Of a stretch of DNA of 64,000 nucleotides, positions 1 to 1,528 are shown one piece after another. Origin of the DNA: Hyphomonadaceae bacterium (GTDB lineage Bacteria > Pseudomonadota > Alphaproteobacteria > Caulobacterales > Aquidulcibacteraceae); the NCBI GenBank assembly GCA_019636095.1, contig JAHBYF010000003.1, forward strand, positions 1 to 64,000, read 5' to 3'. Numbering within the stretch: the stretch's first letter is position 1; every line of letters starts with the position of its first letter. A program made the position numbers and the translations under genes. The notes under the pieces are model-generated. The model saw only the letters and a program-made list of their open reading frames with translations, had not been told where the DNA came from and did no database searches.

Positions 1-858
1 GATCATCGATCCGAAAATGTCGGGATTGATCTTGGTCCAATCGAGCTTGCCGATATGGAGAAGATAGGACCGCGCAATCCGGGAAAAGCGCGGCACGTCC
101 ATGCTGCCTGAGAACAGGCCGCCGTTCACATACGGGAAGCCGTCAGCCCAGCGCGGAATTCCGGCTGCGTTCTTTTCCTCTGGCCGCGCATTCATCGAGC
201 GGAAGATCGCGCCGATCACGTCATGCGTGTTTGTGGCGTCGCTCATGCGCTCCACCGTGTCGGTGAAGCGATAGGAGGGATGCAGGATGTCGGTGTCTTC
301 TGCGAAGAAGCAGAAGATCAGCCGCGCCATGAAATGGTTCATGTCCGGGCGCCGCTCGGCGACATCCCAATCCGGATTTTCCTCCAGCAGCGTCCGGTAC
401 AGTTTGTTGAGGCGGCTCGTGGCGCGGATATCGAACGAGCTGTCGCGAACCTGCTTGACGGTGCTGATGCCTGCTAGCGGCAGGAAGAAGGCGAAGCGAT
501 TGGGGAAATCGCGGTAGTCGCAGACGACTGGGGCATCGTCCGATGTCAGATCTTCCGCCTCGAACGTGTCGCCATCGGTGGCGAGGATAAACTGCGCCTT
601 GAACCGCTTTGTCGCCGGGCTCTCTCTCAGCGCCGCGAGCGTCTTCGTGACTTCGCCTGCGGGCGCGATCGCGATGTGGATGTTGTTGGTCTGGAGCACC
701 CCGCCGATGTCGGACTTGTTGGACTCGCCCTTCCGCAGCCGCTTGATGGTCGTCTCTTTGTTTCCGAACGCCTCAAGGAAGGCGAACGGGAACTCGGCCG
801 CGTCGAACGGGCGCTCAGCGAGCGCCGAAATTGCCTCTTCGATCTCGACCGCGTTCAT
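1..858 (-). CDS. MmeI-like class I SAM-dependent DNA methyltransferase, N-terminal part (runs off left edge)
   Basis: I translated this frame directly: it is open from an ATG at 858-856 to the window edge (286 codons, no stop). The N-terminus carries FLEAFGNKETTIKRLR (residues 27-42) and GGVLQTNNIHI (52-62), and later FARLIFCFFAEDT-like and YVNGGLFSG segments. I recognise these as the N-terminal and helical spacer regions of the large (about 900-1100 aa) adenine methyltransferases related to MmeI/type IIL enzymes. In nuclease-active relatives a D...ExK site lies in the first 100 residues. I see no such site here, so a methyltransferase-only protein is likely (inference). The catalytic NPPY region lies outside the window. 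It faces away from the tRNA-Arg, as the first gene of an island would. It may modify host DNA in a restriction or DISARM-like system, but partners are not visible. Confidence 0.82.
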   Translation of the reverse strand, partial: MNAVEIEEAISALAERPFDAAEFPFAFLEAFGNKETTIKRLRKGESNKSDIGGVLQTNNIHIAIAPAGEVTKTLAALRESPATKRFKAQFILATDGDTFEAEDLTSDDAPVVCDYRDFPNRFAFFLPLAGISTVKQVRDSSFDIRATSRLNKLYRTLLEENPDWDVAERRPDMNHFMARLIFCFFAEDTDILHPSYRFTDTVERMSDATNTHDVIGAIFRSMNARPEEKNAAGIPRWADGFPYVNGGLFSGSMDVPRFSRIARSYLLHIGKLDWTKINPDIFGSMI

Positions 859-998
859 TGCTCAACCCGCCGCCCGCGCTACAGGGGCGGCCCATCCGAA
901 TCCGAAACGTCTTCTTATAGCGAGAACGGGGCGTGTCCGCGCCCAGGTTGCGCGCGGGTTTGCTTGTGCGCCGCCGATCCGGCCGTCAGATTGAACGC

Positions 999-1346
999 AT
1001 GACACAGCGTTGGGCTTATGTGGGCGATTTGGGCGCCAATGGCGCGCTCGATTGGGGCGGCGCGCATAGCGGAAACATCCCCACTAGCGGTCGGCTTAGG
1101 GACCTGGATAGCACCGCATTCTGGAAGATCATGGACCTCGCGGAGAAACGCGAGTTCGAGGGGCGGCAGGTGGATTGGGGCGCCTGGGCGCTGAAGGTGA
1201 ACGGCCCCCAGCTGCGCCAGGTTCTCGAAGCGATCTATGGCGCGGAGCGACTGACGAAGCCTTGGCCGCCGGTCGATAGCTATCTCGCCCTCGCAGACGA
1301 GCTCGGCGCCGCGCAATTCGTCGCCCTGGTCGCTGCAGAACTCTGA
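999..1346 (+). CDS. hypothetical protein, orphan between methyltransferase gene and tRNA-Arg
   Basis: This frame encodes 115 residues starting MTQRWAYVGDLGANGALDWG. An in-frame upstream start at 933 exists, but the ATG at 999 removes an arginine-rich stretch that looks like non-coding sequence. The protein is soluble, tryptophan-rich and acidic-neutral, with no signal peptide or membrane segment, and I do not recognise a family. It is divergent from the methyltransferase gene (140 bp apart) and lies on the island side of the tRNA, so it was probably acquired with that island. Codon use looks genuine: third positions are GC-rich and no better competing frame exists. Function unknown. Confidence 0.6.
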   Translation: MTQRWAYVGDLGANGALDWGGAHSGNIPTSGRLRDLDSTAFWKIMDLAEKREFEGRQVDWGAWALKVNGPQLRQVLEAIYGAERLTKPWPPVDSYLALADELGAAQFVALVAAEL

Positions 1347-1383
1347 TCGCGCGGGCCGTCGCGCAAAATGAGTTTCAGCGAAC

Positions 1384-1427
1384 TGGTAGCAAATTGGTAG
1401 CAGAGCGGCCCGTGGGGGAAAGTAGCA
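1384..1427. repeat. short direct repeats (TGGTAGCA) beside tRNA 3' end
   Basis: TGGTAGCA occurs at 1384-1391 and again at 1395-1402, an 11-bp period (about one helical turn), and a partial third copy GTAGCA lies at 1422-1427. They sit 25-70 bp from the encoded 3' CCA end of tRNA-Arg. Short direct repeats next to a tRNA attachment site resemble integrase arm-type sites; that role is inference. Confidence 0.4.
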
Positions 1428-1451
1428 GATCAGCTAAGTCATTGAAAAATA

Positions 1452-1528
1452 TGGCGCGCCCGAAGAGATTCGAACTCCTGACCCCCAGATTCGTAGTCTG
1501 GTGCTCTATCCAGCTGAGCTACGGGCGC
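1452..1528 (-). tRNA. tRNA-Arg (anticodon ACG)
   Basis: The complementary strand folds as a 77-nt tRNA. The 5' acceptor arm GCGCCCG pairs with CGGGCGC, followed by discriminator G and an encoded CCA (1454-1452). The anticodon stem CCAGA/TCTGG encloses loop CTACGAA, giving anticodon ACG, and the T loop is GTTCGAATC. In bacteria tRNA-Arg(ACG) is normally edited to ICG by TadA and reads CGU/CGC/CGA. Its 3' end points to the putative island at 1-1451, a usual orientation for integration at a tRNA. Confidence 0.97.

Follow-up and report, generated by a model that had tools for sequence, protein, structure and literature searches.

DnmA (YeeA) of Bacillus subtilis is an MmeI homologue without an endonuclease motif, and its gene is flanked by yeeB, which encodes a helicase, and yeeC, which encodes an endonuclease (T5orf172/GIY-YIG) (PMC7261158). 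The order DnmA-YeeB-YeeC has been described as conserved across bacteria (PMC9973331). A Type I-like system has been suggested for these three proteins (PMC7261158; Morgan 2009 as cited there). In published tests the B. subtilis operon restricted neither transformation nor phage (PMC9973331, PMC7261158). Vibrio crassostreae became more sensitive to phage when its homologues of dnmA and yeeB were deleted, according to the citation in PMC9973331.

The window (the whole stretch of 64,000 nucleotides analysed here) begins within a gene of this kind. Our main reading, to which we give a probability of about 0.75 as one joint statement, is that the gene opens an operon of the DnmA-YeeB-YeeC type and that this operon lies on an integrative element at tRNA-Arg(ACG).

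The methyltransferase fragment and its nuclease site

The frame at 1..858 on the minus strand is the 5' third (286 of about 925 codons) of a DnmA/MmeI-like N6-adenine methyltransferase gene. Its product has an MmeI_N domain and an MmeI_hel spacer (PF20464, PF20465; 1.3e-34 and 2.4e-22 in Pfam), and matches REase_MTase_IIG in PADLOC (3.8e-58) and the crystal structure of MmeI (5HR4, 5.9e-18). Full-length relatives are proteins of 925 amino acids with MmeI_Mtase, TRD (target recognition domain) and C domains besides. Contig C5 (591,704 bases) physically ends at position 1 of the window; the frame is open up to this point, nothing is assembled to the left, and the contig break cuts the gene at codon 286. 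Contigs also break inside the same gene in three other genomes of the family (the end of C269 in G015, the end of C2 in G025 and the start of C74 in G003). A possible reason is variation of the locus within the populations sampled.

An earlier note, made from the window alone, had described an MmeI-like methyltransferase lacking an N-terminal nuclease site, and this was borne out. The window and its operon-bearing relatives were compared with solitary MmeI-type proteins from sister genomes (L163, L164 and L165), which are more distant, stand alone and have no YeeB- or YeeC-type gene nearby. The solitary proteins have an intact motif, IDLFxPxxLxxExK (D-x9-E-x-K). In the block that aligns to them without gaps, the window protein reads LQTNNIHIAIAPAG, with Q56, P66 and G68 in the catalytic columns, so that all three D-x9-ExK positions are replaced. 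Residues 56 to 59 (QTNN) are encoded by 682..693 on the minus strand, and Q56 occupies the column of the catalytic aspartate of the ancestral PD-(D/E)xK site. That column holds Q in all 81 operon-type sequences and the lysine column (68) holds G in 79 of the 81, while the glutamate column (66) is unconserved across them. Two remoter operon members (L161 and L162, about 35% identical) also lack the D-x9-ExK motif. As judged from the alignment, the N-terminal nuclease of the window methyltransferase is dead, and the missing D...ExK is real and not a reading error.

These columns bear on the interpretation of the gene as an ordinary Type IIL (MmeI-like) restriction-modification fusion, which would both cut and methylate alone. 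The PADLOC assignment to REase_MTase_IIG is what such an enzyme would give. However, the three catalytic positions are replaced in all or nearly all members of the family, whereas true solitary MmeI relatives keep them, and we regard a self-sufficient enzyme as scarcely credible.

Partner genes and an accessory slot in relatives

A scan of genome contigs found 80 loci with the methyltransferase (71 to 92% identity), whose open reading frames were then clustered. Two neighbours recur: an SF2 helicase of 685 amino acids (DEAD/ResIII) and a T5orf172/MUG113 protein of 400 amino acids with a GIY-YIG C-terminus. The gene order is methyltransferase, SF2 helicase, T5orf172/GIY-YIG protein. Both partners lie on the same strand in all 58 loci whose sequence reaches 8 kb or more past the methyltransferase start, and each locus without one or both of them is cut short by the end of its own contig. 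The earlier suggestion that the methyltransferase comes from a system with separate effector genes is thus supported. Within the family, the whole operon is on one contig in G029, G007 and G047 and is split over two contigs in G003. A helicase encoded on a Niallia (Bacillaceae) plasmid gave a 44% match over 96% and has the same three-gene order. By sequence, this plasmid operon, which stood for the Bacillus side in the comparison, appears to bridge the proteobacterial and Bacillus forms. Phage records gave distant N-terminal matches only.

The partner motifs are intact in the relatives. Near-invariant motifs in the helicase include Walker A (PPASGKSRA), DEFHH and QIIGRATRD, and those of the GIY-YIG domain are YVL, HKIGVT, R and LE. 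The least conserved part of the methyltransferase is the target recognition domain (mean pairwise identity 0.42), with 0.49 at the end of the methyltransferase domain and 0.75 to 0.89 elsewhere. Low identity there is what a system with a diversifying recognition site should show. In all cases tested, motif loss in the methyltransferase went together with the two partner genes, and so strict a linkage speaks for a replacement of the lost nuclease by these partners.

The earlier note gave DISARM-like systems as an example of such systems with separate effectors, and this was not upheld. Under that explanation the gene would be drmMI, the methyltransferase gene of DISARM class 1, and drm genes would lie to its left; full-length relatives do give secondary matches to the DrmMI model (1.2e-25). 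The IIG model is the best by far for the same proteins (9e-277), however, and the conserved neighbourhood consists of a YeeB-type SF2 helicase and a YeeC-type T5orf172/GIY-YIG protein, which match no DrmA, DrmB or DrmC model. PADLOC recognised the methyltransferase of the relatives' operon, gave weak matches only for the helicase and gave none for the GIY-YIG protein. A DISARM system is therefore very improbable.

By analogy with DnmA, the methyltransferase would recognise a short non-palindromic site via its variable target recognition domain and methylate one adenine, marking host DNA. It may then recruit the SF2 helicase/translocase and the T5orf172/GIY-YIG nuclease, which would cleave unmarked DNA in trans in a Type I-like manner. 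We infer such a restriction mechanism for the DnmA-YeeB-YeeC family, in which restriction is unproven since the B. subtilis operon showed none against transformation or phage.

The same published tests (PMC9973331, PMC7261158) favour the main rival explanation, in which the window gene functions as an orphan methyltransferase with a gene-regulatory role, or is a relic, and its partners are lost or inactive; this has been proposed for B. subtilis DnmA. A search of the G000 assembly, to which the window belongs, for the missing part of the operon found no MmeI_Mtase domain above the cut-off and no match to the helicase or GIY-YIG partner, which might also seem to favour an orphan. However, absence of the partners is expected and means nothing here, since the assembly breaks inside the methyltransferase gene. 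Against an orphan are also the 58 of 58 relatives with an intact operon and intact helicase and GIY-YIG motifs, and the raised phage sensitivity of the V. crassostreae deletion (as cited in PMC9973331). We consider an orphan or relic unlikely and prefer a complete DnmA-YeeB-YeeC-type operon. G000 would then carry both partner genes within the assembly gap between contigs C5 and C7. As only 286 of about 925 residues are assembled, the G000 copy could be truncated or partner-less.

Many relatives carry additional genes between the methyltransferase stop and the helicase start (relatives L003-L082; for example, L005:12775-13557). In 69 relatives this slot was empty (gap < 100 nt) in 29 and held an insertion of 0.4 to 4.3 kb in 40. 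In most of the cases that could be resolved, there is a 4-nt overlap between the first slot gene and the methyltransferase stop. The inserted genes are mutually unrelated. They encode YhcG/PDC-S02 and PDDEXK_4/PDC-S26 (PD-(D/E)XK nucleases being among them), GmrSD_N, SLFN_AlbA_2, RhuM/PDC-S05 and PLD-like proteins, HepT with a nucleotidyltransferase (MNT), BrnT, CcdB, HicA-HicB and several families without a Pfam match. When slot labels were placed on a 59-row helicase tree, 30 changes were counted against a shuffled mean of 32.3, and the commonest insert, present in eight rows of the tree, accounted for eight changes. In addition, L006 and L010 have near-identical helicases and different slot content. 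The tree and this pair indicate that the slot is exchanged largely independently of the backbone.

A limited search of the literature found no description of such a slot for DnmA-YeeB-YeeC. Tentatively, the operon may combine a fixed sensing and modifying chassis with an exchangeable effector, a second line that comes into play once restriction has failed; the G000 copy may have such an effector in the gap. The slot offers a starting point in the search for embedded defence effectors.

The tRNA-Arg integration site

The methyltransferase gene lies beyond the 3' end of a tRNA-Arg(ACG) gene (1452..1528, minus strand; ARAGORN) and is transcribed away from it. The tRNA is the integration target, with the island to the left (its 3' side) and the chromosome to the right. 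From 1444 rightwards the window is collinear with the complete genome G032; to the left of this point it is not. Where the assemblies of sister genomes continue past tRNA-Arg, none of them matches the island part of C5 at that place.

A whole-genome search with the tRNA gave one strong extra match, at C7:9069-9122 on the plus strand (96% over 54 nt, E 3.7e-19). This copy starts at the anticodon loop and there is no tRNA gene at it. Its first 46 nt (C7:9069-9114) repeat exactly the 3' half of tRNA-Arg at 1451..1496 (minus strand), the att core. The copy is adjoined by a gene for a tyrosine integrase with Phage_integrase (PF00589) and Arm-DNA-bind_3 (PF13356) domains (C7:7619-8863, minus strand); it is this partial copy, not the intact tRNA, that the integrase adjoins. 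Left of the att copy, the order outward is tyrosine integrase, SF1 helicase (MkoA-like match), HipA-type kinase, MobA/VirD2-type relaxase and signal-peptidase-like TraF (S26 peptidase), and this stretch (C7:1-9068, L149) forms the far end of the island. The relaxase and TraF-like peptidase are encoded at C7:1-2242; TrbE-like genes are on C1, C6 and C11, unlinked to the island.

The flank on C7 is homologous to sequence about 0.2 kb after tRNA-Arg in the complete sister genome G033 (82% DNA identity over 491 nt) and 11.7 kb after it in G032 (78% over 3.5 kb). The orientation fits the order tRNA, island, copy, chromosome. From the tRNA copy, the synteny of the C7 flank, the collinearity of the window with G032 and the lack of a match to the C5 island part in sister genomes, it follows that the left ends of C5 and C7 bracket one integration site. 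The element would span the tRNA on C5, the assembly gap and then, on the left end of C7, the tRNA copy with its integrase, with synteny as the link between the two contigs. It is probably an integrative and conjugative element (ICE) or its remnant, and the tyrosine integrase would have placed it in the 3' half of tRNA-Arg(ACG). Alternatively, two islands in tandem between C5 and C7 are possible.

An island at tRNA-Arg with the gene pointing away from the tRNA 3' end was also what the earlier note had proposed, and it had advised looking for an integrase and, on the far side, for a repeat of the tRNA 3' end. Both are present on C7 and, with the flank synteny, support the island. The note had also pointed to short direct repeats near the tRNA. 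These do exist (9 to 20 nt, 75 to 100% identical); they are trivial and were treated as chance, the meaningful repeat being the tRNA 3' half on C7. The orphan gene that it placed between methyltransferase and tRNA is present at about 999..1346 on the plus strand, encoding 115 amino acids from an ATG at 999 in a frame open from a GTG at 933. It is specific to the island and without a family; it has no Pfam or PADLOC match, and the 59 remaining genomes of the family lack a homologue.

No contig-end overlap with C5-left or C7-left closes the gap. The small contig C3 was rejected as the missing piece, since the genes at its start are, by sequence, of TonB-receptor and sulfotransferase type. The island does not stand out in GC content (0.617 versus 0.624). 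The glycosyltransferase gene adjoining the att copy on C7 was unhelpful as a synteny marker since it has many homologues.

Other species of the genus also have partial copies of the tRNA-Arg 3' half, next to the same peptidase gene (L125 1347-1393 and L136 1393-1440; G056 and G059). They suggest that tRNA-Arg is a recurrent integration site with rearrangements.

Comparison with known systems

The window locus is a new example of the already described DnmA-YeeB-YeeC arrangement, and is not DISARM. Through it, a methyltransferase-helicase-GIY-YIG operon that is widespread but poorly understood is connected with an integrative element, and the question of whether DnmA-YeeB-YeeC restricts becomes testable in families with intact partners. 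YprA/ARMADA, for which a preprint mentions a YeeA-related ArmB, was set aside as a different system.

With DISARM class 1 (drmMI) the operon shares an N6-adenine methyltransferase and an SF2 helicase within a defence operon. However, the relatives' operon has no DrmA, DrmB or DrmC, its helicase is different and it has a GIY-YIG nuclease instead. MmeI and the Type IIL/IIG enzymes (PDB 5HR4) share the MmeI_N and MmeI_hel layout, and in relatives also the Mtase, TRD and C domains, but the window gene is without nuclease catalytic residues and relatives have a helicase and nuclease in trans. The proposed logic, in which a methyltransferase-specificity protein would recruit an ATP-driven translocase with a nuclease, resembles Type I restriction-modification. 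In contrast to Type I, the specificity domain of the relatives is fused to the methyltransferase and the GIY-YIG nuclease is on its own polypeptide.

Accessory genes embedded in defence operons are exemplified by prrC in hsd loci. These, and the HEC/PDC candidates of PADLOC, resemble the slot genes as extra toxin or nuclease genes nested in a restriction-type operon; unlike prrC in hsd, the slot of the relatives is in a DnmA-YeeB-YeeC-type operon, at a single precise site.

The closest likeness is to DnmA-YeeB-YeeC of B. subtilis, where genes for an SF2 helicase and a T5orf172/GIY-YIG protein likewise come, in this order, after that of a nuclease-motif-less MmeI-like methyltransferase in a mobile-looking region. 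The window locus differs in that the contig end leaves only the N-terminus of its methyltransferase visible, in that it lies on a tRNA-Arg integrative element, and in that many relatives of its gene have an extra gene between methyltransferase and helicase.
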